DNA from: an uncultured Chitinophagales bacterium
GTDB taxonomy: Bacteria; Bacteroidota; Bacteroidia; Chitinophagales; JAHDHT01
Reading direction: 5' to 3'
Length of the DNA stretch: 35,199 nucleotides
Assembly (NCBI GenBank): GCA_938023075.1
Contig: CALHDG010000282.1
Coordinates: forward strand, 1 to 35,199
Below are positions 1,260 to 35,078 of this stretch, piece after piece (the first letter of the stretch is position 1; each line of letters starts with the position of its first letter). A program made the position numbers and the translations under genes. The notes beneath the pieces were generated by a model. It searched no databases and was not told the origin of the DNA. It worked only from the letters and a program-made list of their open reading frames with translations.

Positions 1260-4200
1260 ATGCAAAAATTCGCAATTAGATCAACCTTCATTTTATGTTT
1301 TTTAGTTTTTTCAATTACAATCAATGCACAGACCATTTCTGGAGAATTGAAAAAATGGCATAAAATAACCCTTGAATTTACAGGACCTTCATCTTCTGAA
1401 ACCAACCCAACTAATCCGTTTTCAGATTATGCTTTACAAGTCAATTTTATAGGTGCCAACAAAACCTACACAGTTCCAGGATATTTTGCGGCTGATGGAA
1501 ACGCTGCTGAAACCAGTGCTACAAGTGGTAATAAGTGGCATGTTCACTTTACCCCACCCGAAACCGGACTTTGGAATTACACAGTCTCTTTTAAACAGGG
1601 AACAAATGTTGCTATCAATGGCGGTGGTACAGGTGTAGAATCCATAGATGACACATATGGCTCATTTGATATAGCAGACACAGATAAAACTGGAGATGAT
1701 TTGCGGGCTAAAGGCAGAGTTGAATATGTAGGCGAGCATTATTTACAATATGCAGAAACTGGGGAATGGTTTATTAAAGGTGGCGCAGATGCTCCGGAAA
1801 ACACCTTAGCCTACGAAGACTTTGACGAGGTACCTAACCGGGCAAATCGTCGAAAATCCTGGGCACCCCATCAGCAAGATTACCTGGCAAGTGAAGCATC
1901 CAGCTATACATGGCAAAATGGAAAAGGAAGTGAATTGTTGGGCGTTATTCGATATTTATGGTCAAAAGGGCTTAATGCATGGTCGTTTTTAACCTTTAGC
2001 TTAGCAGGTGATGACCACAATGTATTTCCACATCTTTTAAAGGTAAACGTAAACACCTATAGTGGCTATACATCAATAGATGACCAATGGAATTTAGGGG
2101 TGCATCACGACAGGTTTGATGTATCAAGACTGGCTCAGTGGGAACGTATTTTTGAGTATGCTGACACGAAAGGAATGTATCTTCATTTTAAAACACAAGA
2201 ATATGAAAACGATCAAAGAATGGATGGTGGAGCTTTAGGTAGAGAACGAAAATTATATTACCGGGAACTTATCGCCCGCTTCAGTCATCATTTAGCACTC
2301 AACTGGAATGTTGGTGAAGAAAACCAAAACACCGATGCCCAAAGAAAACAATTTGCAGACTATTTGTGGAATATGGATCCCTACAGAAATAATGTGGTCA
2401 TTCACACTGTTCCAGGTGAAAAAAATATTGTTTATACACCATTGTTAGGCAATCAATCAGAATATACTGGACTTTCTCTACAAACAAATAATCCTACTTT
2501 TAATGAAGTTTTTTCTGATGTGGATGAATGGGTAGTAAAATCAAGAAACGCCGGAAAAAAATGGGTTGTAGCTGTTGATGAACCTGGCAGTGGAACATTA
2601 GGCATTGATGTTGATCCTAACGATAAAGATATTGTTAGAGCAAAAGTTAACTGGGCTACATTTTTAGCAGGAGGTGCCGGTATAGAATATTATTATGGTG
2701 CTGAAACAGGTTGTACCGATTTAACGTGCCAAAATCACAGAACAAGAGCTCAAAAATATACTCAATTATCACATACCTTAGACTTTTTTCAAGATCACTT
2801 TCAACAATATTTACCAAATGTTATTGAAGATCGAGCTATAACTTCTGCTACTAATGACTATGTGCTCTCGAAACCTGGAGTTGCTTATGCGGTCTATAGT
2901 CCTGATGGTGCAACAACTAATATTAATTTGCCTGCTGGAGATTGGAGCGTACAATGGTATAACCCAAGAACTGGGGTAATGACAAATATAATTAATGACG
3001 TTGCCGGTCAACTCATCCCGCCAAACAATAATGATTGGGTTGGACTGATTACTCAGTGCACCAACAAAATCTTATTTGTAAGAGGTGGATCAGGATCGGG
3101 CGGCTTTCTGGATGGTGGATCAGATGATCAATTAGCAGATATTTATGATTATTCTACCACTAATCCTAATTGGGGATGGGGAGAATTTTCAAATCTTTTG
3201 ACAGGATTAGGTTATGAAGTAGAGCAAGTAGAAGAAACATTTGTTCCAAATTGTGGAAAATGTAATGGCGCAATAGATTTCACAAATATTGATCTTGATG
3301 AATATGATCTAATCGTTTTTGGTTCTAATAATGCGCTTTATCGGTATGAAGAGACAGGAATAGCGTATGTTGATGCAGTTGAAAATTATATTAGAACTGG
3401 TGGAGCTGCCTTGTTTTTGAGCGATGCAAATTTTGGATCTGATTGGTGGGATGCACCATACTCTGATCAAGGTTTTTTAGATAGGTTTGGTTGGGAGATG
3501 AATCAGGATGCAGGAACTTATGCTATAGATGCTTCGGAATTCCTTGATCCTACTCATCCTATTTTAACAAACGTAACTTCCTTTGATGGAGAAGGTGTAT
3601 CTCCGATAACGCTTGTAAATAATAATATTCCTGGTGTAACAAGTACCATACTAGCAAGAGCGGAAGGTTCAGTAAGAAGAAACACTGGTTTATATGGAGG
3701 CTTAGGACCCATAGAAAATATTACAAACAACGATGCTGCATTAATTGTTGCCACGGTAGATCAAGGACGAATTGCTGGTCACTACGATAGAAATACATTT
3801 TTTAACCTAAATGGCGCAGGTACAAATATTAACAGGCTATCCAATATGCAATATGCTACCAACTTAGTTCAATGGTTAACTGGTGGTTGTGCTGCTCAGC
3901 CTGTTCCAATAAACATTCCCTCAACTGTGCAGGCAGAAGATTTTTCCAGTCAGTCTGGTACTATTCAAATTGAACCAACGGCAGATACTGGTGGTGGTTC
4001 AAATATTGGCTTTATTCAAAATGGTACTTATACTAAATACGACTTAAATGTTACTCAAGCAGGTACTTACGACTTGTGTTTTAGAGTGGCTTCCAACTCA
4101 AATGGGGGTACAATTAATGTATATTTCGATGGTATTCTTAAAACATCAATACCTGTAACTAATACAGGCGGGTGGCAAAGTTGGCAAACCGTTATTGGTT

Positions 4201-5801
4201 CTATCAATTTAACTGCTGGTGTACAAACTATGACCCTTGAATTTACAGGTGGCGCCGGAGGTTTGATGAATGTCAACTGGGTGAAATTTGATAATAATGC
4301 AGACATTTATTTTCAACTGGTAGATGCCAATACAGATCTTGTGATTAGAAATCTTGTACAAGGCGAAACCATCGATTTAACGGTAGATGGTACAGATTTA
4401 AACATTATAGCAGTAACCAATGGTCCTGTAGGAAGTGTTCGATTTGGCTATGATGGAAATACTAATTTTATTACAGAAAGTGTAGCTCCTTATGCGCTTG
4501 CTGGAGATAGTAATGGAGACTATAATTCGTGGACACCTACAGAAGGATACCATGAAATAACTGCAAGTTCCTATCAAAATAGTGGGGCAACTGGTGCTTT
4601 AATAAATTCTGTTACTGTAGGATTTTTTGTTATAGAAAGCTGTGCTAATAATGGTCAGGCTTGTAACAATGCAGGCATCTTTTTGCAACTAGTAGATGCC
4701 AATACAAATATTGTGATTAGAAATCTTGTACAAGGTGAAACTATAGATTTAAGAGTAGATGGTGCCGATTTAAATATTGTAGCAGCACTAGCAAATGGTC
4801 CTGTAGGAAGTGTTCAATTTGGTTATGATGGAAATACCAATTTCATTACAGAAAACGTTGCTCCACATGCGCTTGCCGGCGATAGTAATGGAAACTACAA
4901 TTCATGGACACCTACTGTTGGTTTTCATACAGTAACCGCAAGCGCCTATCAAAATAGTGGGGCGTCTGGTGCTTTATTGGGTTCTGTTACCAATGGATTT
5001 TTTGTTATTGAAAGCTGTGCTGCTAATGATCAAACTTGTAATAATGCCGGCATCTTTTTGCAACTAATAGATGCCAATACAGATGGTGTGATTAGAAATT
5101 TGGTAGATGGCGAAACCATAGATTTAACAATAGACGGTACAGATTTAAATATTGTAGCGGCATTAGCAAATGGTCCTGTAGGAAGTGTTCGATTTGGTTA
5201 TGATGGAAATGCTAATTTCATTACAGAAAACACTGCTCCGCATGCGCTTGCTGGCGATAGTAATGGAAACTACAATTCGTGGACACCTACGGTAGGTTTT
5301 CATACAGTAACCGCAAGTGCTTATCAAAATAGTGGAGCCTCTGGTGCTTTTTTGGGTTCTGACACCAAAGGATTTTATGTGATTGAAAGCTGCGCTACCA
5401 TTGGGCAGGCTTGTAATGATGCAGACCCATGCACGGTTAATGACACATTTGATGCCTCGTGTAATTGCGCTGGCACATTTACGGATACAGACAATGATGG
5501 TATTGCAAATACCTGTGATAATTGCCCTGCTATATCAAATACAAATCAAACCGATACCAATTTGAACGGAAGTGGTGATATATGTGAAACTCAATGTCAG
5601 CCAATTCATGTGCTTAGTGGCAATTATCCATCTACAAGTGTATTAGAATTTAATGCTCAAAATACGATTGAGAGCTCTAGCCAAAATGAAAGTGGTTCAA
5701 ACATTAGCTATGAAGCCGTAACCCGTGTTCAATTGAAAAGTGGATTTAAAATTGAAGCAGGCGCTACTTTTCGTGCCTATAATTTGGGTTGTACTCCATA
5801 G
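1260..5801 (+). CDS. Large secreted DUF5060 glycoside-hydrolase-like protein with ThuA-like, CBM6-like and tandem repeat domains
   Basis: Residues 1-24 are a signal peptide (cleavage after INA). Domain order from motifs: a DUF5060-like beta domain (about 28-140); a TIM-barrel-like region (about 155-530) with NWNVGEEN (348-355) and VAVDEPGS (437-444), whose acidic residues are candidate catalytic groups; a collagen-binding-2-like cap (about 530-605, WYNPRTG); a ThuA/GATase-like domain (about 613-880, DLIVFGSNN, GGAALFLSDANFG); a CBM6-like domain (about 882-1011); three near-identical repeats (1016-1389); a TSP3-like calcium-binding stretch (DTDNDGIANTCDNCP); and a 3-coathanger-type C-terminal domain ending in a final Cys. 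This architecture fits an extracellular polysaccharide-degrading or binding enzyme; the substrate cannot be told from sequence. No type IX secretion C-terminal domain is evident. The fusion of a ThuA-like domain is unusual. A palindrome (5848-5890) and a terminator (5945-5990) follow. Function is family-level inference; the gene call is certain. Confidence 0.85.
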   Translation: MQKFAIRSTFILCFLVFSITINAQTISGELKKWHKITLEFTGPSSSETNPTNPFSDYALQVNFIGANKTYTVPGYFAADGNAAETSATSGNKWHVHFTPPETGLWNYTVSFKQGTNVAINGGGTGVESIDDTYGSFDIADTDKTGDDLRAKGRVEYVGEHYLQYAETGEWFIKGGADAPENTLAYEDFDEVPNRANRRKSWAPHQQDYLASEASSYTWQNGKGSELLGVIRYLWSKGLNAWSFLTFSLAGDDHNVFPHLLKVNVNTYSGYTSIDDQWNLGVHHDRFDVSRLAQWERIFEYADTKGMYLHFKTQEYENDQRMDGGALGRERKLYYRELIARFSHHLALNWNVGEENQNTDAQRKQFADYLWNMDPYRNNVVIHTVPGEKNIVYTPLLGNQSEYTGLSLQTNNPTFNEVFSDVDEWVVKSRNAGKKWVVAVDEPGSGTLGIDVDPNDKDIVRAKVNWATFLAGGAGIEYYYGAETGCTDLTCQNHRTRAQKYTQLSHTLDFFQDHFQQYLPNVIEDRAITSATNDYVLSKPGVAYAVYSPDGATTNINLPAGDWSVQWYNPRTGVMTNIINDVAGQLIPPNNNDWVGLITQCTNKILFVRGGSGSGGFLDGGSDDQLADIYDYSTTNPNWGWGEFSNLLTGLGYEVEQVEETFVPNCGKCNGAIDFTNIDLDEYDLIVFGSNNALYRYEETGIAYVDAVENYIRTGGAALFLSDANFGSDWWDAPYSDQGFLDRFGWEMNQDAGTYAIDASEFLDPTHPILTNVTSFDGEGVSPITLVNNNIPGVTSTILARAEGSVRRNTGLYGGLGPIENITNNDAALIVATVDQGRIAGHYDRNTFFNLNGAGTNINRLSNMQYATNLVQWLTGGCAAQPVPINIPSTVQAEDFSSQSGTIQIEPTADTGGGSNIGFIQNGTYTKYDLNVTQAGTYDLCFRVASNSNGGTINVYFDGILKTSIPVTNTGGWQSWQTVIGSINLTAGVQTMTLEFTGGAGGLMNVNWVKFDNNADIYFQLVDANTDLVIRNLVQGETIDLTVDGTDLNIIAVTNGPVGSVRFGYDGNTNFITESVAPYALAGDSNGDYNSWTPTEGYHEITASSYQNSGATGALINSVTVGFFVIESCANNGQACNNAGIFLQLVDANTNIVIRNLVQGETIDLRVDGADLNIVAALANGPVGSVQFGYDGNTNFITENVAPHALAGDSNGNYNSWTPTVGFHTVTASAYQNSGASGALLGSVTNGFFVIESCAANDQTCNNAGIFLQLIDANTDGVIRNLVDGETIDLTIDGTDLNIVAALANGPVGSVRFGYDGNANFITENTAPHALAGDSNGNYNSWTPTVGFHTVTASAYQNSGASGAFLGSDTKGFYVIESCATIGQACNDADPCTVNDTFDASCNCAGTFTDTDNDGIANTCDNCPAISNTNQTDTNLNGSGDICETQCQPIHVLSGNYPSTSVLEFNAQNTIESSSQNESGSNISYEAVTRVQLKSGFKIEAGATFRAYNLGCTP
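4305..5423 (+). repeat. Three tandem intragenic repeats of about 373 bp
   Basis: Units begin at 4305, 4677 and 5052 and encode 124-125 residues each, starting (I)xFLQLVDANTD and ending FxVIESC. Units 2 and 3 are almost identical in DNA over long stretches, for example the coding for NGPVGSVxFGYDGN and DSNGNYNSWTPTVGFHTV. Unit 1 is more diverged. This suggests recent in-frame duplication or gene conversion of an Ig/cadherin-like adhesive domain. Confidence 0.9.
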
Positions 5802-12422: not shown

Positions 12423-15400
12423 TTATCTACTTAATTTAAGGTTGTAATTTAATGTACTACTCGTTATTTTTATAGCACCCAAACTCATCATCAGTAAACA
12501 TAAAACAATCAAACCCCATTGCGAAAGGGTAGGTATTGCTGGAACATCACAATCATTTGCAATCATAGTAAAAACCGTTTCACAATCTGTTTCTTCATCT
12601 ACCGAAAACATCATAGTAACTGTATTGTTAGCTGCTGTTGCAGGGAAGGTGTAGGTATCTCCATCATTACCCATCATTCCATCTCCTGCTGTCCAAGGTC
12701 CAGTGCTGCTTACCGTTACCGTTATTGTAACTACATCATCACTGCCATCTTGTGGTGTATCATTATTATCACAAACAATTTCGCTTACTTCGGCAGAAAT
12801 GCTGCAGGTTACAGGTTCAGTATCATCTGCCATAAAATCGGTTCCATCTGTATCATCATTAGTTAGATCATCATCAATTGTAAAAGGTTTAGGTCCGGTT
12901 TCTCCATTCGCATCGGTATAACAAGTTGGTAAATTAGCTGTTAACTCGGCTGTATAATCTCCGCAAGGGTAGGCTGTTGGAGAAGAATCGTACACCCCAT
13001 TGGCATCTGTAGTTAAAGTAGTTACAACCGCACCCGTATCATCATAAATGGTAACAGTAATACCCGCAATAGCACAACCGGTTGGTGGAATAACTGTTCC
13101 CGAAATTTCATCTTCGCAAGAAACCGGCATGCCTTCAAAATCCGTTCCGTCTGTATCATCATTATTCGGGTCATCATCTATGGTAAAAGGCTTAGGTCCT
13201 GTTTCTCCATTGGCATCGGTGTAACAAGTTGGCAAACCAGCAGTTAATTCAGCAGTATAATCGCCGCAAGGATATGTTGTTGGCGTAGAATCATAAACTC
13301 CATTAGCATTTGTAACAAGTGTAGTAACTACAGTACCCATATCATCATAAATAGTAACTGTAATTCCAGAAACTGCGCATCCCATTGGAGGAATAACTGT
13401 ACCTGAAATTTCATCTTCACAAGGCACTTCTTCTGAACAGGTGGCAGGTGCTGCAGCCATCATCATACCAGCACATCCGGCATCGTCTGCATCTGTAAAA
13501 TTAACTGTTACATTACCACCGGCTATTGGGTAGGGACCATAAGAAACCGTGGTGCCATAAGCAATACCAGTATTTCCCTGATCATCATTAAAGGTATTGG
13601 TTGCTGCAGGATCGGTATTGTTACCATTAACCACTATATCAAAAGTATAGGTATCATCACTGGCATCTTCAGGTGTACCATTATCATTGCAAACAATATT
13701 GGTTGCCATTTCTGGTATGATGGAACAGTTTGGTTGGCAAGTATCGCAAGCTGGTATGGGTTCTTCTAAAGCGGTAAGCTCGGTAAACAAGCATTCTGCC
13801 GGAGCATTGGTAAATAGTGTGCCATCTAAATAATTGACCGAATAGGTTATACTTCCTGGAACAGGCGGACAGCCATCTTCCGGATCAACCGTTATTACAT
13901 CAAAAATATCTAAATCACAATCACCTGTACTGATAATCTCAGGATAATCTGCTGGGAGTGGACAATTATCTACTGCTGGTATTACTTCGTAACTAAATTT
14001 ATCTAATGATGGGTAGATTGTTGTTACAGCTGTTCCGTTAAACAATGGAGTTCCATCTATTGAACAGAATAAATCTATTGTAAAATTTTCTTCAATTGGC
14101 ACACAATCAATAATTGCACTTGAATTGAACTCACTACAATAAATAGTGTTCATACCATCTCCACTAACTGTTAAATTAGCAAAAGTCCCAAAATCTCCAT
14201 TTATATTAATTTGTGTACCTATGGCATTAGCTTCATCACCTTCTTCAAATTCTATACAAATTTCCAATACACCACCTTCGCAAGTGTTTTCTGTAAGGGT
14301 TACATTTACAACCGGGTTTGGACAAGGGCAAGTACTGCAACCTGGTTGAGGCAATATAATGGATGCCGGAAAGCCATCGCAGGCAAAGGCACTTATATCT
14401 AAAGGATTAAAATTATTATCTAAATAATCTAAAAAGACTTCTGTTTCCCCATCTGTTGGAGGGCATCCATCAACCGGATCTGTTACAACTACAGAAGTGT
14501 TGGAAAATACAAAACAAGGTGGTTGATTGTTTGGCGGACCAACAAAAGGAGGGAAACCACAACCACCAGGAAATACCATGTATTGAAAATTAGCTGGATC
14601 AGGAGCTACTAATATTTCTGGAGTTATACCATTGCTTGCTGTTCCGTCAATTGTACATTCAATTTCAAAAGGTACTTGAACTGGCTCAAAACTACAGCCA
14701 TCATTTACTAAAGGCAAATCAAAACATAATTGACTCTCGCCAGCTACAGCATCTACTCCATTTATATTTACCTGAGCATCGCTTTCAAAAGGTGCATCAA
14801 AAGTTACGCACACTTCGGTTATATCGCCAGTACAAAATGGGCCTGAATCTGCAACAGAAACCTCAGTTGCAACAGGGCAACAATTACTGCATGCGGGTAT
14901 TGGTTCCTGTCCACTTATTTCAGTAGTATCAAAACAATCAGGGGCGTCACTTGCATCAAAACCAAAATCAACTATCCATTCTACTAAACCATCGCTACCT
15001 GCTGGGCAGGCAATGGGGTCGGCTGGAGTAAGGGTTGTAGTCAATTCGCCACAACCTGGTGGATTAATAACCGGTGCTTCGCCACAAACAATGGCTGGTT
15101 CAATTTCTGGAATAAATGGATCAATAGGTGGATATATGGTAATGGAACCGACAGGAATGCTTGTTCCAATAATTTCGAAGTTATAAGGACATCTTAATTC
15201 AAGAAATAAATCGAAGAGTGTTGGTGCGCAAATACTATTGGTAAATGGAAAAAATGCGAAAGTATTGGTTAATGGATCACCAGGAAAAATCTGATTAAAC
15301 CCAAAAAAGTTTCCTGTGGCATCTGTAAGGATAATTAACAAACCATCGGGGTCAGGTATCATATCAACCGTTACTGTAAAATCAACTGGTTGATTGCTGC

Positions 15401-18400
15401 AGGCTGCTTCTGGCAAAGTAGAATCAAAAGTAGCTGTTGGTCCTTCACCAATACAACTACAATTTTCATCTAAAACATCGTTTACTGTGCAAGGGTTGTT
15501 ATCATCACAAGGATCGCCAGGATTACCCGCACATGCAAAAACCGGTTCTGTGCCTTCTATTGGGAAGGCATAGCAGTCCGGAGGATAATCAAATCCAAAA
15601 TCAACTGACCAACTTACCTCAGTATCTTCACCACCACAACCGGGCACAGGAATTGGGTCTGGGTCAAGCACAATAGTTCCGCAAGGTGCAGGTGTAATCA
15701 TCAAATCTTGAACACAAGGGATACTTGGTGTTATGTTAGGAAAAAAGTTAAACGGATCTGGATAAACGAGCAGCGTACCTAATGTGCCTGATGCTAATAT
15801 GCTACCATCATCTGGGCATTGAATTTCGTAAGTAAAAGTTTGATCTTCTGGCTCACAACCTGACGTAAACGGAGAAATTAAAGGAAATATGGTAGTTGGA
15901 TCGCCTGGATTGTGCACATCAAAACCTATATTAAAACCATTATTATCGAAAGTTAAGATGAAATAAGTGCCGAAATCTGCTCCAATACCAGTAATATCTA
16001 ACTGATAAGGAACACCGTTATAAGGGCAAACTTCGGTAGGAAAATCAGTTGCAGTAGCCATTAAATCTAAACAAACGTTTTGGCAGAAAGTGCCATCGCA
16101 AGGACAATCAATTAAACAAGGCGGAATTGGGGCTTGACCAGAAAGTGGATCGGTAAAACAAGCCGGTGCATTGGTAATATCAAATGGAGGAACGATCAGA
16201 TAACTTATAAAACCGGCAACCGGAGCATCACAGTCATCTACCGGAGGTACATTTTCAATAATATCTAAAGTTTCACCACAATAACCATTTATATTAATAA
16301 CAGGTTCAGATTCGCAAGGTATACCAGGCTGAATAAACGGTGTGAAATTAAATGGATTTGGATAGATGGTAACCGGACCAACCGTAACCGGTGTACCAAT
16401 AATTGAAAAGTCATAAAAGCATCTTAATGTAAAAGTATAGGTTTCCTCTGACACAGTACAAAAATCATAATAGTAATAATAATAATCGAACAAGTCAACT
16501 GTTAATGGGAATGCTGTATATTCATCAATAAAAATTGAGCTAACTAGAAAGCCATTTTGATTAGTCACCTGCAGTTCATAAAATTGACCAGGAGGTATTG
16601 CACCGGTAAAATCAACATTTATCATTATAGGCTCACCCTGGCAAGCAGCAACTGGAGCATCTGTAATAACAATTTGAGGTAATTCTTCTACTACACATGT
16701 ACAATTTTCATCTAAGGTGCCTTCACCCAAACATTCGGTAAAGCAAGGGTCTCCCGGATTATCAGGACAACCAAAAACGGTAAATTCTCCCATTACAAAA
16801 CTGGCGTCGAAACAATCTGGAGCATCGGCTATATCAAAACCTACATCAACAGTCCATGTAACTATTTGATCTTCTGAACCTTCGCCACATTGTGGGTTTG
16901 GAATGGGTTCGGGATCAGTTACAACCGTACCGCAAGGAGCCGGTAAAATGGTAGTTCCGGCACCACAAGGTTGCCCTTCCATTATTTCAGGAAAAAATAA
17001 AAATGGTTCAGGATAGACGGTAATATCACCGAGTGTGCCAGATGCTAAAAGTACGTATTCGTAAGCACAAAATATTTCATATTCTAAAGTATAGGTTACG
17101 GGTTCACAATTTACTCCCGGACCATAAAAAAATGGAAAAATATCAAAAGTAGTTGGATCACCTAATTGATGAAAAAAGCCATCTACTTGATTACCATTAA
17201 AAATAATATCACCAAAATAAGTTGCTGTAGAAGCACCTTGTCCGGTTACTTCTATTGAAATCGGGTCACCTCCATAGGTGCATACGGTTTGTGGTAAGCC
17301 GGCAGCGGTTACCATTAAATCGGTACAAGTACCGCTGCAAAAAACACCGTCGCATGGGCAATCTTCTTCGCATGGTGCTATAGGAACTTCACCTGCAAAA
17401 ATATCAGAGAGACAATCTGGTGCATTCGTTATATCGAAGCCGGGGTCAATTGTATAGTTTAGGATACCAGGTGTTAAATTCTCACAGTCATTAATCGGTT
17501 CAATAATCTCTCCAGTTATTACTGTTCCACAAATGGAAGGTTCAATTGTAGGAGGTACACCACATTCAGGCGAAGGCGTAGTAAATACATCAAAGAAAAA
17601 GGGTGCCGGATAAATTGTTATCGTTCCTAAATTTTCAGTAACAAACTCTCCTGTTTCAAAGCAATTGTATTCCAAAGTAAGCACGTCATCAAAAGGTTGG
17701 CATATATCATCATAATTATAAAAGATATCTAACGTAAAACATACTTCATTGGTTGCAGGATCACTAGATATTGGAAAACCGAAACCTCCACTAGCAGAAG
17801 TTATAAACATTCCATAAATATCAATAGCGGTAATGTCACCATCAAAAGTGAGACAAAAGCTATTATCCGGGCTGTATCCACCGCAAATTCCAGTGGGTAT
17901 ACCATCTGCTAATGGACGAGGGCAGCAAGGTTCAGCAAAAACACAGCTTCCGTCATCGCAAACAGCCGTTTCGCTAAAGTTACAAGCTGTGGCATCTGTA
18001 CAACCAAATTCCAACTCTGTACAAGGCACTTCAAGTTCATCATTAAAATTGAAAAAACAATATAAAGCATCGGGAAAGGGGTTGAAGTCATAAGATAATG
18101 TACCGGGCTGTTGCGTTTCGCAATCTCCATCTGTACCGGCAACTCCTTCTATTGGTCCGTCGCAAATCGTTCCATCAAACGCTACCAAAGTAGCCGAGCC
18201 ATTTTCGCCTTCAGCACATCCGGGTTCAACTACTTCAACCATTAACTGCGGGTATACTGTGTAAGTACCTAAATCAACCACATCTAATTCTTCACCAGTG
18301 TATGGACAAATAATGATCATTTCAAATGAAACTTCAACTGCTTCACAACCTTCTACCGAATTTGGCATTAAGTCTGCAAAACCAAAGCCATAATCATCGC

Positions 18401-18650
18401 CAAAACCAAAACCTTGAGAGCCATCAGTACCAGTAACGATAATATCATAGAATTCACCCATTGGCGGACCGTTAGTTATGATGTTTAGTTCTACAAAAGC
18501 TCCATAATCACCACATATTTCTGGTCCATAAAATGGGAAGAAATCTACCCCAGCATAATTACTGCATTCTGGCGGAGGCGGTGGTGGTTGAGCACTTAAT
18601 TGGATAATTAATAAACTTAGAGATAAAACAAATAACAATTTAAATTTCAT
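12423..18650 (-). CDS. Giant secreted Cys-rich acidic repeat protein, Lys/Arg-depleted, with an IPTL-CTERM-like tail
   Basis: 2075 residues. A signal peptide (MKFKLLFVLSLSLLIIQLSA) is followed by a Pro6 stretch. About 1,600 residues contain eight units of roughly 190-215 residues, each marked by a TIYPxPFxF-like strand (near residues 129, 345, 542, 761, 960, 1170, 1346, 1542), then CG, DPxPIP, VDFGFDIxxAPDCF and PIPAC-CPCDG signatures. Residues about 213-235 carry GCTDATACNFSETAVCDDGSC, a motif frequent in Bacteroidota surface proteins. Two SdrB/Cna-B-like domains (CEDEISGTVIPP ... GVYDS) follow, flanked by two copies of a CNDNGTPEDASDD-type domain. The C-terminus is IPTLSQWG, a hydrophobic segment and a short basic end, resembling IPTL-CTERM sorting tails. 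Between signal and tail I count only about six Lys/Arg, with many Asp, Glu and Cys. Likely a disulfide-stabilised surface structural or adhesive protein; function unknown. Its upstream neighbour is divergent, so it is a single-gene unit. Confidence 0.85.
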   Translation of the reverse strand: MKFKLLFVLSLSLLIIQLSAQPPPPPPECSNYAGVDFFPFYGPEICGDYGAFVELNIITNGPPMGEFYDIIVTGTDGSQGFGFGDDYGFGFADLMPNSVEGCEAVEVSFEMIIICPYTGEELDVVDLGTYTVYPQLMVEVVEPGCAEGENGSATLVAFDGTICDGPIEGVAGTDGDCETQQPGTLSYDFNPFPDALYCFFNFNDELEVPCTELEFGCTDATACNFSETAVCDDGSCVFAEPCCPRPLADGIPTGICGGYSPDNSFCLTFDGDITAIDIYGMFITSASGGFGFPISSDPATNEVCFTLDIFYNYDDICQPFDDVLTLEYNCFETGEFVTENLGTITIYPAPFFFDVFTTPSPECGVPPTIEPSICGTVITGEIIEPINDCENLTPGILNYTIDPGFDITNAPDCLSDIFAGEVPIAPCEEDCPCDGVFCSGTCTDLMVTAAGLPQTVCTYGGDPISIEVTGQGASTATYFGDIIFNGNQVDGFFHQLGDPTTFDIFPFFYGPGVNCEPVTYTLEYEIFCAYEYVLLASGTLGDITVYPEPFLFFPEIMEGQPCGAGTTILPAPCGTVVTDPEPIPNPQCGEGSEDQIVTWTVDVGFDIADAPDCFDASFVMGEFTVFGCPDNPGDPCFTECLGEGTLDENCTCVVEELPQIVITDAPVAACQGEPIMINVDFTGAIPPGQFYELQVTNQNGFLVSSIFIDEYTAFPLTVDLFDYYYYYYDFCTVSEETYTFTLRCFYDFSIIGTPVTVGPVTIYPNPFNFTPFIQPGIPCESEPVININGYCGETLDIIENVPPVDDCDAPVAGFISYLIVPPFDITNAPACFTDPLSGQAPIPPCLIDCPCDGTFCQNVCLDLMATATDFPTEVCPYNGVPYQLDITGIGADFGTYFILTFDNNGFNIGFDVHNPGDPTTIFPLISPFTSGCEPEDQTFTYEIQCPDDGSILASGTLGTLLVYPDPFNFFPNITPSIPCVQDLMITPAPCGTIVLDPDPIPVPGCGGEDTEVSWSVDFGFDYPPDCYAFPIEGTEPVFACAGNPGDPCDDNNPCTVNDVLDENCSCIGEGPTATFDSTLPEAACSNQPVDFTVTVDMIPDPDGLLIILTDATGNFFGFNQIFPGDPLTNTFAFFPFTNSICAPTLFDLFLELRCPYNFEIIGTSIPVGSITIYPPIDPFIPEIEPAIVCGEAPVINPPGCGELTTTLTPADPIACPAGSDGLVEWIVDFGFDASDAPDCFDTTEISGQEPIPACSNCCPVATEVSVADSGPFCTGDITEVCVTFDAPFESDAQVNINGVDAVAGESQLCFDLPLVNDGCSFEPVQVPFEIECTIDGTASNGITPEILVAPDPANFQYMVFPGGCGFPPFVGPPNNQPPCFVFSNTSVVVTDPVDGCPPTDGETEVFLDYLDNNFNPLDISAFACDGFPASIILPQPGCSTCPCPNPVVNVTLTENTCEGGVLEICIEFEEGDEANAIGTQININGDFGTFANLTVSGDGMNTIYCSEFNSSAIIDCVPIEENFTIDLFCSIDGTPLFNGTAVTTIYPSLDKFSYEVIPAVDNCPLPADYPEIISTGDCDLDIFDVITVDPEDGCPPVPGSITYSVNYLDGTLFTNAPAECLFTELTALEEPIPACDTCQPNCSIIPEMATNIVCNDNGTPEDASDDTYTFDIVVNGNNTDPAATNTFNDDQGNTGIAYGTTVSYGPYPIAGGNVTVNFTDADDAGCAGMMMAAAPATCSEEVPCEDEISGTVIPPMGCAVSGITVTIYDDMGTVVTTLVTNANGVYDSTPTTYPCGDYTAELTAGLPTCYTDANGETGPKPFTIDDDPNNDDTDGTDFEGMPVSCEDEISGTVIPPTGCAIAGITVTIYDDTGAVVTTLTTDANGVYDSSPTAYPCGDYTAELTANLPTCYTDANGETGPKPFTIDDDLTNDDTDGTDFMADDTEPVTCSISAEVSEIVCDNNDTPQDGSDDVVTITVTVSSTGPWTAGDGMMGNDGDTYTFPATAANNTVTMMFSVDEETDCETVFTMIANDCDVPAIPTLSQWGLIVLCLLMMSLGAIKITSSTLNYNLKLSR
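12833..13423 (-). repeat. Tandem pair of SdrB/Cna-B-like coding repeats
   Basis: Two copies with a period of about 303 bases (about 12833-13123 and 13136-13423). Each encodes EISGTVIPP, ITVTIYDD, NGVYDS and GDYTAELTA, then YTDANGETGPKPFTIDDD and DDTDGTDF. The only Lys residues of this part of the protein are the two in GPKPF. Confidence 0.85.
16467..16484 (-). repeat. In-frame triplet repeat encoding Tyr6
   Basis: Six consecutive Tyr codons (TAT x3, TAC, TAT x2 on the minus strand) at residues 723-728 of the giant protein, inside an otherwise normal repeat unit. This is a microsatellite that could change length without breaking the frame. Confidence 0.8.
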
Positions 18651-19492: not shown

Positions 19493-20812
19493 TTACCTAT
19501 TAGCCTCAGCCCCAAGCCTGTGCTCCACATTCGTAAAAAAACTATCTCCATAAAATACAATTGTTCCCTTTTTTAAACCAAGTTGCTTTACTAATTCAAC
19601 ACCTTTCCATTGGTTGCCACAGCGGTTAAAAATTTTGCTGTTGTTTAACACCAAGCGAGCACCAGGATGTAATTGAATACGACTGCCAGCGGGCATAGAA
19701 AGGGCACAGTGAACAACCAATTCAGCATCTTTTTGAAGTATCAAATTGCCCTGTACATCTTTTCTGCTAAGCCAATCTACTTTTTGGTTGGGTTGAATAG
19801 TAATGGTTTTGTCGGCACGGTAAGTACACCAATCGGCACGCGTTACTTTGCGTTGGCTAGAGTTTTCTTTGCTAATGTTGTAATGCATTCGGGCAATTTG
19901 ACAAGGCGTTAAGGCATTGCTGTAGCGGTTATAATCCATTATATTATTAGAGATCAACCCATCACAAGGTGGCTTGCCGGTTTCGCCCCAGCAATTGCTG
20001 TGTATCGGGGTGTCTTCACAACCATCGTTGCGCGTCCAAGAGTGTAGCAAACCCAACGAATGGCCAATTTCGTGATTGAGCGTATTGGCAGCAAACCAAG
20101 CACCTTTACTTACTTTACCGGCTTTGGTTTGTTGATATTCGTAATAGCTGTTAGATACTTTGGTATAATATGATTTTCCAATTCCATTCGATGAGTTTTT
20201 ATACGTGTTGGATAAAATGCTATCCGGGTGATGTTCCACCATAAATATATTCAATACTTTTTCTTTTTGAACCCCAAATTTATCGTATACCGCATCGGAG
20301 TATAAACCGTGGATGCCTCGTTTGTCTTTATGATTTAAATACCAAATGCTTGAATCTTGATGAAAGTAAATACCGGTATCGTTTGGCTTCGATGCGTGTG
20401 GTGTAATCACATATTGTATTTGTATAGGCAAAACAGGCGTCTCGTTATCTTTAGGTAAATGCATTTTATTATTTTTCAGCAGTTTTTGATTGGCATGCCA
20501 TATTAAATCTTTAGCAAAGGTAGTCCCTTCTTTTTCATTAAAATTATATTGCCGGTTAGGATGGTCGATAAAATGCACATTAACTTTAATGTATTTTGTG
20601 GGTAGAAATTCTGGGTGAGCCAAGTCTGGCTGGTAGTTTAAGGGCTCTTTACAAGGGCTTTTTGTGCTAGTATTTAAGCCAGGATAAACGCCACTTTTGT
20701 TTATAACATCCTTTTGGTTGGCGTACACAATAGATTTGGTAACCGCACACGAAAAATTTGTTAACAAAAAATACAATATAGTATAAGAAATAACTTTTAG
20801 AATTGGTTGCAT
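19493..20812 (-). CDS. Secreted M43 (pappalysin-like) zinc metalloprotease
   Basis: The start chosen is the ATG at 20812 (439 residues); the frame also opens with a TTG at 20824. The N-terminal hydrophobic stretch (VISYTILYFLLTNFSCA) is an export signal. The metzincin zinc site is LNHEIGHSLGLLHSW (HExxHxxGxxH, near residue 250), with DGCEDTP behind it and the Met-turn NNIMDYN, all as in M43 pappalysin-like peptidases. The C-terminal 110 residues look like the beginning of a beta-helix (ITIQPNQKVDW, LVVHCALSMPAGSRI, IFNRCGNQWKGVEL), as seen in other Bacteroidota proteases, but the protein stops at EANR without a recognisable sorting domain. Divergent from the TPR lipoprotein gene, from which it is only 58 bases away, so the promoters overlap. 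Confidence 0.86.
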   Translation of the reverse strand: MQPILKVISYTILYFLLTNFSCAVTKSIVYANQKDVINKSGVYPGLNTSTKSPCKEPLNYQPDLAHPEFLPTKYIKVNVHFIDHPNRQYNFNEKEGTTFAKDLIWHANQKLLKNNKMHLPKDNETPVLPIQIQYVITPHASKPNDTGIYFHQDSSIWYLNHKDKRGIHGLYSDAVYDKFGVQKEKVLNIFMVEHHPDSILSNTYKNSSNGIGKSYYTKVSNSYYEYQQTKAGKVSKGAWFAANTLNHEIGHSLGLLHSWTRNDGCEDTPIHSNCWGETGKPPCDGLISNNIMDYNRYSNALTPCQIARMHYNISKENSSQRKVTRADWCTYRADKTITIQPNQKVDWLSRKDVQGNLILQKDAELVVHCALSMPAGSRIQLHPGARLVLNNSKIFNRCGNQWKGVELVKQLGLKKGTIVFYGDSFFTNVEHRLGAEANR

Positions 20813-20838
20813 AAAAATTATCAATTTTAATATCTTTG
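20807..20838 (+). promoter_or_regulatory. Promoter of the TPR lipoprotein gene
   Basis: TTG (20807-20809), a 21-base spacer and TATCTTTG (20831-20838) match the Bacteroidota -33/-7 pattern. The -7 box ends 32 bases before the ATG at 20871. The promoter overlaps the start region of the divergent M43 gene. Confidence 0.6.
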
Positions 20839-31119: not shown

Positions 31120-34100
31120 CTACTCACACTCCTCAATATAAGCACTAAAATTTGTTAGTGGGGGCGTACTAAAGCCATTGTTTAACTGTATTAATTGACC
31201 GGCTTTATATCGTTCATTAGTAGTGCTATTGATTAAATTGGCAGAAGATTTAAGCACATCATAGGCTTGATGAAAATTGATGCCGTTCTGATGAAAAAAC
31301 AGACTTAAGTTATTGGTAGATGGCTCATAAGAAAAGGCTTGTTCAGCAACCGGGATAAAACTGGTTTCTGCCCAATTCGCATCAAAACTAGAAGCTGCTA
31401 TTTGAATGGTTCCGGTAATATTACCCAACAGATATTTTTGCACCGATAGCTCTATCCCATACTTTGAGGTAATCATATTTACGGCTCCAATTGGTAGCCA
31501 ATCCCAACTTACGCCATTGCCTTGATAAACGAACAAGTCGCCCTGATCAATTAAATAATTAAAACCGGTTAAAGACCAATTGCTATCGGTATATTCATTA
31601 TTACCTAAAGCATCATTATCCGTATCAATAAATACTTGTTGATATACATCCATATTGCCTTCTAACAAAATGTATAATAATTCCGATCCGTCTGAAATTT
31701 TGAAAGATTGTAAATTGCTACTACCCGTATGTTGAACGGCGTGATTGATATGCAACCACTGCCCGGTATCTCCATTAATGGTTAAGCAAGCTGGTTTAAT
31801 ATTGCAAAGGTCTTTGGTGCCCATTAAGTAATTTAAACTTGCGTTGCCTTCTGGTATGGCACCTGTTTCATGATAATCAACATTTAAACTAGAAGCTGCA
31901 AAACTTATACTATTAGATAGATTAGACAGTTGATTTTTTTGAACCGAAATTTCCAATACGTTTTCAGTTATAGAATGGCTTACCGTACCTATTGATGACC
32001 AACTCCAACTTACACCATCTCCATTGTAAACGAATAACTCGCTGTTTTCAATAAGATAGTTGAAACCGGCATACTCCCATTGGCTGTTGTTATAGCGATT
32101 TAAAGTTGAACTGTTTACATCAGAATTCAGGTAAATTTGATTATTCACATCTAAACCACCTTCAACATAAAATAAGAGTTCATTACCATTATCTGCTACT
32201 TTAATATGCGTTAAACTACCCGATTTTGCATAGGCATAGGTTGTCAAATTATTCCATTCATTCGCGTTTCCATCAACGGTAATGCAATTATTATTTGTGC
32301 GTTTATTGCTTGAATCTTTAACATTTTCAATTGGTGTTGATGCAATAACGTATTTTGTATTTAAATGAATTTCTTTTTCATTATTAACTGTTTTTTGAAC
32401 TATCTGACCACAAGAATTATTACTTGACATTTGATAGGAAATGCCAGTTGCACTATTAGCCGGTAACTTACCTGCTGCTATCCAATTACTATTATAATAA
32501 TACCCGGCAACCTTTATCGTAGAACTTAAGGGTTCTTGAAATGTAGATTTTGGAATGCGGAATTCTAATACATTGTTGTTGCCAAAGTTTCTTTCAATTT
32601 CGCCTAGAAACTGCCAGTCCCAACTGTTTCCATCTCCTACATATTTATGTAAGGTGTTGAACTCCATCATATAATTAAAGCCACTGTTGCTCCAATCGGT
32701 TGCTCTAAATTCATTGCTTCCGTTAGTATTGTTATCCGTATCAAAAAATATTTGTGGGGTATGATTTAAGATGCTTAAGTTTCCTTCAATTAGCACAAAT
32801 AAATCTTGCGCATTATCGGTTACTGTTAGTTTTTTTAAAGTTGCAGTATTGTTTGAATAGGTAGTAGTTAAAGTTTGCCACTCATTACTATTGCCATCTA
32901 TCATAATACAAACATCAGGTTCAACACAAGGGTTTGAGGAGAACGGTTGATAAGAAGCCCCAAAATTACCAGAAGCAGGAAGGTAAGCCGTGCCACTCCA
33001 AGCAGCATTTAAAGTTTTGGCACCAATAGAAATATTGGCATTAGAAAGTGCATTAAACAAATATTTGGGAACCATGAGTTCTAATCCGTTCGCCGCTTCA
33101 TTTTGAGGGATAGCACTAATGGGTGACCAAGCCCAATCCCACGAATTGGTTGAAACATATTTAAATAGCGTACCGTTTTCTAGCATATAATTGAAGCCGG
33201 TTTGCTGCCAGTTGCTGCTTAAATACTCGCTATCGTTATTGTTCGATCTGACGGAGTTTCCATCGGTATCTATAAATATTTGATAATGATTTCTTAATGT
33301 ACCAGACAGATGCAAGTAAATATGACCGGCATCATCTGCCGCTTTTAGGGTACTTAACTCTGTGCTATTGGCTGTCCTCAGTTCTATAATACCATTCCAA
33401 TCGGTAAAATTGCCATCAATGTCAATACAATTGTTGCCCATTGGTGGTGGGGGCGGCGGCGGTGTGTTTTGTATACTAATGGTATGATTTAAATTGTTGT
33501 AGCCGGTATTGGCATCCCAAACATCTATATTATTAGATAGTTTATTGGCTAACCGAATGCTGTATGCCGGGTTGTTTCTAATGCTTTCTGTAGTTTGATT
33601 TCGTTTAGATAAATCAGCAATATGCAAATACATACTATAATCACCAACACTAACAGAAGCCGGTAAATTGAACCTTAAATTTAAAGTATGATTTCCACTC
33701 GTCCATCTTCTGCTGTCCGCATCATCTCCATAAACTTCAATCGGATTTAAAAAAGCTCCAGTTGAATTGTTTTTTAGCATCATAAATAAAGTACGTTTAT
33801 TAAATGGAGCGGCAAAACCATTGTTGTCTAAATTTAAACTAAAATTTACAATATCGCCCTGCTGCGCCACCTCTTGAAACTGCCCGTTGTTTAACACAAA
33901 ACGGTAACCTAAGCGTGTTTTAATTTCATCTAGGCAATTGCCATCTTCCCAATCGTTATTTACATAATAACTATAAGCACTATTTAAGAAAGACCAATTC
34001 ATGAGTTCCATTTCGGCAACGGCTTGCCCACCCTGCGAAGCACAATTGTTGTATGGATTGTTGCCATCTGCACAAGTTTCGCCACCAACAGCCACATAAT

Positions 34101-35055
34101 CTCCTTCATTGTTTGCATAGGCTCTCCAAAAATCTTTATTGGTGCTATCGTTCATATCATAACCCAAATAGGTACCTACATCATCGGGCGATGATAAAAA
34201 GCAATCGTTTTGAAAACCAATTCGATTAGCATATTGAGGATGTTGTTGTAAAAACTTATATCGCATTTGCGGGTACCTTACTTGCACCATTCTACTTTCG
34301 GGTAAAGCATCTAACAAAGCTTTTAATACATTAATACGCGCTTGCCAATCATCACTATCTAAATAGCCTTTTCCATTTGGCGAGGAATCTCCAAAATAAT
34401 CGGTATAGTATTGCTCCCCCCAAACACCTATAAAACCATTTTGAACCAGCATAATTACATCTTCATTATTGCGGAAGTAAGGTGCTAATTGTTGAATATG
34501 CCGGGTTACCCAAAATTCAGAGGCATCTCCATACTCGCAAACGCAGACATTAGCAGTTGGTATTCTACCATTACAATTTGGTGGACTTTCCCCTTCTCCA
34601 CAAAGAGGCGTATTTAAGATGTATGAAAAACGCAACACCATACGAACGCCCGCATTTCTTGCCCGGTTAAAATCAGTTTGAATTTTGCTTAAAAAAGAAC
34701 TATCAATATAAGAAGATCTAAAATCATCTAATACATAATGACGTAATATTACGCTGTTGTTGGTCTCGTAAGACGGGTTAATACTATTAAATCCCGGCGA
34801 AAAGGGGTTACCTGTTCTTCTGTCTCTTAACTGATTTTCGTTTAAGGATAAAAAATTGCCGGGTGTGTCGTACCAGTATTCGCTATCGTAGGGAAAATAA
34901 AAGCCCCGGTCAGGATTCATAAAATGATCATAAGATTCATTATAGAACACATTTTGAGTAAAACCCTGTAAAGCAGTTATTAAAAAGCCAGTAAGTAATA
35001 CTATTTTGAAAATTGCGTAGAATAGATTCTGTTGAAGTTGTAGCTTCTTTTTCAT
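31120..35055 (-). CDS. Secreted DUF4874/DUF4832 protein with four repeated beta domains
   Basis: The ATG at 35055 (1311 residues) is preferred over a TTG at 35073, because a TATATTTA box at 35079-35086 would place the transcript start near 35072. A signal peptide ends at GFTQN. Residues about 30-190 match DUF4874 (NPDRGFYFPYDSEYWY; VILRHYVLDDFR; GVRMVLRFSYI) and about 190-520 DUF4832 (GFIGVWGEQYYTDYFG; YRFVLNNGQF), together a TIM-barrel-like region of probable glycan-active type. A Pro7 linker (near 540) leads to four copies of a 155-165-residue beta domain (CIDIDGNFTDWNG ... QIFIDTDGN ... GFNYMLENGTLFKY ... WDWAW), resembling DOMON/CBM9-type carbohydrate-binding sandwiches. A C-terminal 3-coathanger-type segment ends the chain. 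Likely an extracellular carbohydrate-active or binding protein; substrate unknown. Confidence 0.82.
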   Translation of the reverse strand: MKKKLQLQQNLFYAIFKIVLLTGFLITALQGFTQNVFYNESYDHFMNPDRGFYFPYDSEYWYDTPGNFLSLNENQLRDRRTGNPFSPGFNSINPSYETNNSVILRHYVLDDFRSSYIDSSFLSKIQTDFNRARNAGVRMVLRFSYILNTPLCGEGESPPNCNGRIPTANVCVCEYGDASEFWVTRHIQQLAPYFRNNEDVIMLVQNGFIGVWGEQYYTDYFGDSSPNGKGYLDSDDWQARINVLKALLDALPESRMVQVRYPQMRYKFLQQHPQYANRIGFQNDCFLSSPDDVGTYLGYDMNDSTNKDFWRAYANNEGDYVAVGGETCADGNNPYNNCASQGGQAVAEMELMNWSFLNSAYSYYVNNDWEDGNCLDEIKTRLGYRFVLNNGQFQEVAQQGDIVNFSLNLDNNGFAAPFNKRTLFMMLKNNSTGAFLNPIEVYGDDADSRRWTSGNHTLNLRFNLPASVSVGDYSMYLHIADLSKRNQTTESIRNNPAYSIRLANKLSNNIDVWDANTGYNNLNHTISIQNTPPPPPPPMGNNCIDIDGNFTDWNGIIELRTANSTELSTLKAADDAGHIYLHLSGTLRNHYQIFIDTDGNSVRSNNNDSEYLSSNWQQTGFNYMLENGTLFKYVSTNSWDWAWSPISAIPQNEAANGLELMVPKYLFNALSNANISIGAKTLNAAWSGTAYLPASGNFGASYQPFSSNPCVEPDVCIMIDGNSNEWQTLTTTYSNNTATLKKLTVTDNAQDLFVLIEGNLSILNHTPQIFFDTDNNTNGSNEFRATDWSNSGFNYMMEFNTLHKYVGDGNSWDWQFLGEIERNFGNNNVLEFRIPKSTFQEPLSSTIKVAGYYYNSNWIAAGKLPANSATGISYQMSSNNSCGQIVQKTVNNEKEIHLNTKYVIASTPIENVKDSSNKRTNNNCITVDGNANEWNNLTTYAYAKSGSLTHIKVADNGNELLFYVEGGLDVNNQIYLNSDVNSSTLNRYNNSQWEYAGFNYLIENSELFVYNGDGVSWSWSSIGTVSHSITENVLEISVQKNQLSNLSNSISFAASSLNVDYHETGAIPEGNASLNYLMGTKDLCNIKPACLTINGDTGQWLHINHAVQHTGSSNLQSFKISDGSELLYILLEGNMDVYQQVFIDTDNDALGNNEYTDSNWSLTGFNYLIDQGDLFVYQGNGVSWDWLPIGAVNMITSKYGIELSVQKYLLGNITGTIQIAASSFDANWAETSFIPVAEQAFSYEPSTNNLSLFFHQNGINFHQAYDVLKSSANLINSTTNERYKAGQLIQLNNGFSTPPLTNFSAYIEECE
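31320..33432 (-). repeat. Four divergent coding repeats of the DOMON/CBM9-like domain
   Basis: Units begin (minus strand) near 33432, 32912, 32288 and 31795, each at C(I/L)xx(D/N)G(N/D)xxxW. Each contains IDTD or an equivalent, WxxxGFNYLIExGxLFVYxG and WxWxxIG. They are clearly homologous but well diverged, unlike the fresh repeats of the DUF5060 protein. Unit 2 and unit 3 are separated by a longer linker (KTVNNEKEIHLNTKYVIAS). Confidence 0.85.
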
Positions 35056-35078
35056 GTTTAAAATATTGATCAATTAAA

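Follow-up and report, generated by a model that had tools for sequence, protein, structure and literature searches.

The question raised by this locus is why an exported protein of more than 2,000 residues should carry almost no lysine or arginine. The window, a stretch of 35,199 nucleotides from the genome of an uncultured Chitinophagales bacterium, contains on its minus strand an open reading frame (12423-18650) with an ATG start and no internal stop, which encodes a protein of 2,075 residues, here called P0001; G000 denotes the source genome, and other genomes and loci carry G-numbers and L-numbers. The protein ends in an IPTL-CTERM tag, the presumed recognition signal for the exosortase XrtH. 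Lys, Arg and His are nearly absent from the XrtH-tagged class as a whole, in G000 and in four related genomes, a conclusion that we hold with high confidence.

Composition and sorting tag of P0001

Residues 22-2037 of P0001, a total of 2,016, comprise 3 Lys, 3 Arg, 2 His, 114 Cys and 321 acidic residues (194 Asp and 127 Glu), and their net charge is approximately -315. The Lys residues lie at positions 1551, 1820 and 1921, and the Arg residues at 245, 743 and 1153. An initial annotation of this DNA had counted about six Lys/Arg between the signal peptide and the tail, together with many Asp/Glu and Cys, and these six are exactly the sites that it named. The remaining basic residues are K2 and K4 in the signal peptide and K2061, K2072 and R2075 after the C-terminal helix. 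At the rate of cytosolic proteins of G000, 223 Lys/Arg would be expected in 2,016 residues (Poisson P for six or fewer = 2e-86), at the rate of its type IX secretion system (T9SS) cargo 93 (P = 5e-32), and 23 if homologous segments of proteins that lack the tag set the rate (P = 2e-5). Codon third positions in the P0001 gene are AT-rich, as in the genome. Base composition is not the cause of the depletion, as had been argued at the outset, since most neighbouring genes encode proteins with 9-17% Lys+Arg, a few exported or membrane proteins among them having 4-8%. The expectation that the protein would be nearly invisible to tryptic proteomics was also borne out: trypsin would cut the ectodomain into fragments of 721, 410, 398 and 487 residues and yields no peptide of 7-35 residues from P0001, while cleavage after Asp/Glu would give about 65% coverage.

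The final 37 residues of P0001, IPTLSQWGLIVLCLLMMSLGAIKITSSTLNYNLKLSR, constitute the IPTL-CTERM tag, in which the IPTL motif is followed by a membrane helix and then by a basic tail; a signal peptide is present at the N-terminus, and both this peptide and the C-terminal helix were assigned by eye. The tag scores 25.5 bits with PF18203 (cut-off 20.8), and 32.0 bits in the genome search, and it scores 17.6 with TIGR04174, which is under the cut-off of 20.5. Among NCBIfam hits with E <= 1, there is no match in P0001 to a T9SS C-terminal domain (TIGR04183 or TIGR04131). The genome (6.1 Mb, 97% complete) contains 26 IPTL tails and three XrtH-like exosortases. One of the latter, at C224 (17149-18422; L079), scores 90.8 bits with TIGR04177 against a cut-off of 86, and the other two lie at C241 (2534-3712; L088) and C34 (48540-49895; L090); the two remaining scores, 84.2 and 76.3 bits, fall just under that cut-off. 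Directly after each of the three genes lies a companion gene for a membrane protein (219, 202 and 233 residues) with no convincing family match, and just upstream of the C241 exosortase is an IPTL protein of its own with a longer C-terminus. The trait that had singled out P0001 is real; it is not peculiar to this protein, which is a member of a tagged class of about 26.

We also considered membership of P0001 in the midcut-by-XrtH family (NF033207) and rejected it, the score being 17.9 bits against a cut-off of 45. Relatives with a longer C-terminus score 17-20 bits with the same model, and their match is confined to the IPTL part. In IPTL proteins of G001, G487, G477 and G510 (L130-L132, L320, L359-L378), a conserved domain of about 95 residues, with further membrane segments and ordinary Lys/Arg content, comes after the motif (LPFDxxIFRK...IGFxICFAIYGAIF..DIIGVxIAGPVFAYLIHLL). 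This domain looks like an undescribed midcut-type C-terminus.

Basic residues across the tagged class

For comparison within G000, open reading frames were derived from the window and from 40 further regions, a sample focused on contigs that bear IPTL or T9SS tails; models, regular expressions and simple rules served to assign tags, signal peptides and classes. A protein counted as T9SS cargo only where a listed TIGR04183 match fell inside a sampled region, and the other classes therefore include some T9SS cargo. Median Lys+Arg is 0.3% in the IPTL proteins (n = 24, range 0-4.0), 19 of which are linked by shared domains and are thus not independent, compared with 5.4% in T9SS cargo (n = 29), 9.4% in other signal-peptide proteins (n = 99) and 11.0% in the remaining proteins (n = 257); the difference between IPTL proteins and T9SS cargo has a Mann-Whitney U P value of 5e-9. 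The exported proteins of this genome are therefore not generally low in Lys and Arg. The depletion shows no trend with the length of IPTL proteins (rho 0.07), and short members (315-433 residues) are depleted as much as long ones. No tryptic peptide of 7-35 residues is obtained from 15 of the 24.

Relative to the last of these classes, which is mostly cytosolic, the pooled IPTL proteins have 34-fold less Lys, 7-fold less Arg and 7-fold less His. On a log2 scale the depletion is -5.2 for Lys and -3.0 for Arg (confidence interval of the difference, -3.4 to -1.2), and Lys/(Lys+Arg) falls from 0.70 to 0.33. Asn is unchanged (6.6% vs 6.4%) and Gln is only halved. Strong negative charge or Ca2+ binding, which the initial annotation had offered as possible drivers, are not supported by this pattern: only Asp is enriched (9.6% vs 5.8%) and Glu is lower (3.7% vs 6.4%), and an IPTL family with only 6-7% Asp+Glu shows Lys/Arg depletion almost equal to that of the acidic members. 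P0001 itself contains no DxDxDG calcium motif.

The depletion stops at the tag. Across 52 IPTL proteins, Lys+Arg is about 0.5% upstream of the motif, drops to 0 within the motif and the helix, and reaches 12% immediately beyond it. One IPTL family of 400-490 residues, in which no Pfam domain was found (G000 C287:15384, C199:30881 and C27:9245; G477 C32; G487 C75), has a long Lys-rich N-terminal region up to a hydrophobic stretch of the LLSYSAL type, after which it is almost free of Lys/Arg, with ordinary acid content.

The four related genomes, which are metagenome-assembled and 69-83% complete, comprise one from the same family and three from another family of the order. Their 28 IPTL proteins have median Lys+Arg contents of 0.23% (G001), 0.33% (G487), 0.20% (G477) and 0.47% (G510). 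An ortholog of P0001 in G487, which belongs to the other family, aligns over 1,927 positions with 45.8% identity. Of the 1,045 differing positions, only six (0.57%) involve gain or loss of Lys/Arg. Three of the four aligned Lys/Arg residues of P0001 (R743, R1153 and K1551) are kept in the ortholog, and 103 of 115 Cys residues are aligned with Cys. In control pairs from the same genomes, Lys/Arg account for 14.7% of differences in the mostly cytosolic class and 3.6% in T9SS cargo (only three pairs); the corresponding values are 1.3% for all IPTL pairs and 0.5% for two signal-peptide pairs. This scarcity of Lys/Arg changes among the differences shows that selection against these residues still continues, and together with the class comparison it bears out the earlier proposal that the depletion is selected. 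Likewise, the depletion is conserved in homologs, and the close repeat homologs of P0001 have 0.5-2.1% Lys+Arg, which is not an ordinary content. The G487 ortholog (L317, C75) ends in CSDCGND, with neither an IPTL nor a T9SS tail; a frameshift, an assembly error or a secreted form could each explain this end.

The same domains can be compared on and off the route. In aligned homologous segments from G000, Lys+Arg is 0.25% in IPTL proteins vs 1.16% in non-IPTL proteins (4.6-fold), the non-IPTL segment being higher in 28 comparisons, lower in 6 and equal in 10. Domain type therefore explains part, and not all, of the depletion. The M43 catalytic domain offers the clearest comparison: median Lys+Arg is 0% in IPTL proteins (n = 8) vs 4.4% in non-IPTL proteins (n = 27; P = 1.8e-4), and the IPTL versions retain the zinc motif HExxHxxGxxH and their His content. 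A beta-helix IPTL protein has 0.67% Lys+Arg, and the low-acid family, which has no Pfam domain, has 0-1.2%. In an IPTL M43 metalloprotease of G000 (C106:39116-42814; L075), most Lys precede the catalytic domain, in an N-terminal segment that may be a propeptide, and the rest of the protein is poor in Lys/Arg.

Explanations for the depletion

The reading that we favour, to which we assign a probability of roughly 0.6, is that P0001 is a giant envelope or surface protein on the XrtH route from which Lys and Arg have been purged as a class trait under selection, with charge avoidance as the proposed reason. The Sec signal peptide would direct export of an ectodomain made up of eight Cys-rich immunoglobulin-like (Ig-like) modules and two SdrD_B domains; XrtH would presumably cut at the tag, and the ectodomain would be released or transferred to the cell surface or to an exopolysaccharide-rich matrix. 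Cationic patches on proteins as large and extended as these would adhere to polyanions of the envelope and matrix (lipopolysaccharide, exopolysaccharide, extracellular DNA), either during passage or once anchored, and the ectodomain may be seen as a non-stick, disulfide-stiffened stalk or adhesin. That the cause is selection against positive charge after Sec translocation, through avoidance of such sticking, we propose tentatively and at somewhat less than even odds. Exosortases are associated with exopolysaccharide (PMC1569441), and charge avoidance after translocation agrees both with this association and with most of the pattern of depletion: Lys, Arg and His all fall, catalytic His and Asn stay, the trait does not require many acidic residues and ends at the tag, and length is irrelevant.

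Several observations weigh against this reading. Pure charge avoidance does not predict that Lys should be depleted in excess of Arg. Giant T9SS type-B proteins in genomes without IPTL tags are equally bare, as in G570 (L324; 4,113 residues, 6 Lys/Arg, 0.15%) and G662 (L329; 4,157 residues, 4 Lys/Arg, 0.10%), and fragments of T9SS type-B proteins have Lys+Arg medians of 0.7-3.7% by genome, lowest in long proteins (rho -0.60). Lys/Arg content is also close to zero in three M43 domains of non-IPTL proteins, whose tails, as judged by eye, are T9SS, dockerin-like and unclassified, and part of the depletion goes with domain type. IPTL proteins elsewhere, sought by a motif scan, are more mildly depleted, at 1.65% in G041, 3.1% in G044, 2.2% in other Bacteroidota and 3.5% in other phyla, against a background of 11%; the route alone therefore does not force a near-zero content. 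As a side observation, G000 encodes a T9SS type-B protein of 5,161 residues (C27:92655-108140; L094) with a stretch of 2,634 residues lacking both Lys and Arg.

A stricter form of the favoured reading, in which the XrtH/IPTL route imposes a cation-free rule on cargo of any fold, enzymes included, and purges non-catalytic His as well, seems to us rather unlikely; here, positive charge would not be tolerated by some element specific to the route, be it the transfer of cargo by the exosortase, an exporter in the outer membrane or the anionic matrix. Less likely still, and about equally so, are accounts based on domain history and on protease resistance. According to the former, a low Lys/Arg content is inherent to Cys-rich, Asp/Thr/Pro-rich modules of the Ig and SdrD_B kinds, and IPTL proteins were built from them by chance. 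The low content of homologous non-IPTL segments, the anticorrelation between Cys and Lys+Arg in exported proteins (rho -0.63) and the domain sharing among 19 of 24 IPTL proteins are all consistent with such a history, whereas the 4.6-fold difference within homologous segments and the depletion of unrelated folds (the beta-helix protein, the family without a Pfam domain and the M43 enzymes) are not.

Protease resistance, the first of the initial suggestions, would have Lys and Arg removed as targets of trypsin-like, Lys-specific or Arg-specific proteases of the bacterium itself, its predators or its neighbours. IPTL proteins have essentially no tryptic sites, most of the 24 give no usable peptide, depletion is highest in long exposed proteins, and the same idea has been proposed for the Lys/Arg-poor RTX proteins of Roseobacter (PMC3933643). 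Nevertheless, His, which is no target of trypsin, is depleted as strongly as Arg; Pro follows 8 of 247 residual Lys/Arg (3.2%, against a background of 3.3%), so that these sites are not shielded; and T9SS cargo, which presumably faces the same outside, keeps about 5% Lys/Arg. Trypsin resistance is thus not supported as the driver.

We regard translocation kinetics as improbable. In this case, positive charges would slow Sec or an outer-membrane exporter, and very long cargo would have been purged. Positive charges do limit transport through SecYEG (PMC9110029) and block secretion by an ATP-binding cassette system (PMC9223453), and Lys+Arg falls with length in exported non-IPTL proteins (rho -0.44) as it does in the T9SS type-B proteins. 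However, such kinetics predict that Arg would be lost first and Lys favoured, the opposite of the observed shift in Lys/(Lys+Arg); IPTL proteins show no length trend, their short members included; and the Sec step is identical for T9SS cargo.

Avoidance of amines has lower odds again. A thioester between XrtH and its cargo would be passed to an amine acceptor, and Lys in the cargo would compete and hence be removed. Transfer by a Cys-nucleophile exosortase to an unknown nucleophile has been proposed (PMC1569441), and Lys is the most depleted residue in G000 and is depleted beyond Arg in G041 and G044 as well. Against this, Arg and His are also depleted, and T9SS cargo, some of which is likewise passed on by a sortase-like enzyme, retains 3% Lys; moreover, the more depleted basic residue is Lys in AT-rich genomes and Arg in GC-rich ones. 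Lastly, nitrogen economy or base-composition bias is very improbable, for although Lys, Arg and His are nitrogen-rich and rare in the class, Asn is undepleted and Gln only halved, and the third positions and mostly Lys-rich neighbours of the gene argue against bias.

Architecture, known systems and significance

The features of P0001 are collected in the table below. Gln at the expected signal peptide cleavage site agrees with the Q-rule of Bacteroidota (PMC10653852). The eight Cys-rich modules are each about 200 residues long and share 8 invariant columns, six of which are Cys. PF17210 (SdrD_B) matches two stretches with 39 bits against a gathering score of 29.7, and no RTX family is found among the Pfam matches at E <= 1. 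An AlphaFold2 model of module 4, for which the input alignment consisted of its sister modules, gave only generic Ig-like matches in Foldseek (best E 0.004, TM about 0.3), and a sequence search of solved structures returned nothing useful.

Table. Features of the P0001 gene, in window coordinates (aa, amino acid residues; pLDDT, predicted local distance difference test)
Feature	Position	Strand	Basis
Exported IPTL-CTERM protein, 2,075 aa, 6 Lys/Arg in residues 22-2037	12423..18650	-	Sequence count
Signal peptide region, aa 1-21, MKFKLLFVLSLSLLIIQLSAQ	18588..18650	-	Read from sequence
Cys-rich module 1, aa 22-242, with GCTDATACNF...DDGSC motif	17925..18587	-	
Cys-rich Ig-like module 2, aa 243-442	17325..17924	-	
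Cys-rich Ig-like module 3, aa 443-655	16686..17324	-	
Cys-rich Ig-like module 4, aa 656-862	16065..16685	-	Mostly beta in the AlphaFold2 model (mean pLDDT 83)
Cys-rich Ig-like module 5, aa 863-1070	15441..16064	-	
Cys-rich Ig-like module 6, aa 1071-1260	14871..15440	-	
Cys-rich Ig-like module 7, aa 1261-1445	14316..14870	-	
Cys-rich Ig-like module 8, aa 1446-1640	13731..14315	-	
Domain 9, aa 1641-1740, common to giant surface proteins across the order	13431..13730	-	
SdrD_B / carboxypeptidase-regulatory-like domain copy 1, aa 1741-1842, with K1820 (GPKPF)	13125..13430	-	
SdrD_B / carboxypeptidase-regulatory-like domain copy 2, aa 1843-1945, with K1921 (GPKPF)	12816..13124	-	
Domain 12, small, aa 1946-2038	12537..12815	-	
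IPTL-CTERM motif and membrane helix, aa 2039-2060, IPTLSQWGLIVLCLLMMSLGAI	12471..12536	-	PF18203
Basic tail after helix, aa 2061-2075, KITSSTLNYNLKLSR, and stop; Lys/Arg return	12423..12470	-	

Elsewhere in the window, two more giant exported proteins (1260-5801 and 31120-35073) have 5-6% Lys+Arg, which is low and not extreme; one carries CBM6, CBM35 and DUF5060, and the other DUF4832 and DUF4874. Near the IPTL gene, at 19493-20824, lies a gene for an M43/reprolysin-like metallopeptidase with ordinary Lys/Arg content (11.7%).

P0001 resembles known IPTL-CTERM/XrtH cargo (PF18203, TIGR04174, TIGR04177) in its IPTLSQWG motif, helix, basic tail and signal peptide, in the presence of XrtH in the genome, and in that many tagged proteins of varied domain content occur together. 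It differs in degree: IPTL cargo elsewhere has 1.7-3.5% Lys+Arg and mostly less Cys, whereas the proteins described here have 0.2-0.5% Lys+Arg, nearly no His and 2.6-6% Cys. Cargo of the PEP-CTERM/EpsH system likewise combines an exosortase-type tag with a lowered content of basic residues; Haft et al. (2006, PMC1569441) also described very little Cys (0.4%) and increased Thr, Ser and Asn in it, and a resemblance of LPXTG proteins to it in composition. The proteins described here, by contrast, contain about 5% Cys and scarcely any basic residues, with no rise in Ser or Asn. Roseobacter RTX proteins are also secreted and poor in Lys/Arg (1 in 59 in the best case and about 1 in 30 in others), refractory to tryptic proteomics and conserved in this trait among homologs (PMC3933643). 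They are proteins of another kind and more mildly depleted, P0001 having 1 basic residue per 336. Closer in extent are the giant T9SS type-B (Bac_Flav_CTERM) proteins of Saprospiraceae and relatives, which share giant Cys-containing repeats and domain 9 with P0001 and of which the largest have 0.10-0.15% Lys+Arg, but they carry another sorting signal and their depletion is length-dependent and not class-wide. Lysine deserts are conserved Lys-free stretches under selection (PMC10169902, PMC10665810). They are explained by ubiquitylation or pupylation, whereas in the present case Arg and His are lost as well and the proteins are exported.

Among the open-licence papers searched, the one that names IPTL-CTERM is about a Methylomirabilis S-layer protein (PMC8671808), and we found no report there of a near-complete, route-wide loss of basic residues. 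A reduction in PEP-CTERM cargo has been known since 2006; the near-elimination of basic residues on one sorting route looks new. For protein design, too, there is interest in folding proteins, and in an enzyme domain that retains its zinc motif, that are all but free of Lys and Arg. For community studies, the consequence is that proteomics based on trypsin or Lys-C misses an entire surface proteome; in the absence of usable tryptic peptides, IPTL-CTERM proteins would be under-reported in biofilm and community proteomes unless samples are digested with Glu-C, with chymotrypsin or non-specifically. For the biology of these bacteria, selection that acts against positive charge and is tied to the route appears to mould an entire set of surface proteins, and a composition rule that ends at the tag, is independent of fold and is selected provides a handle on how exosortase cargo is dealt with after its recognition.

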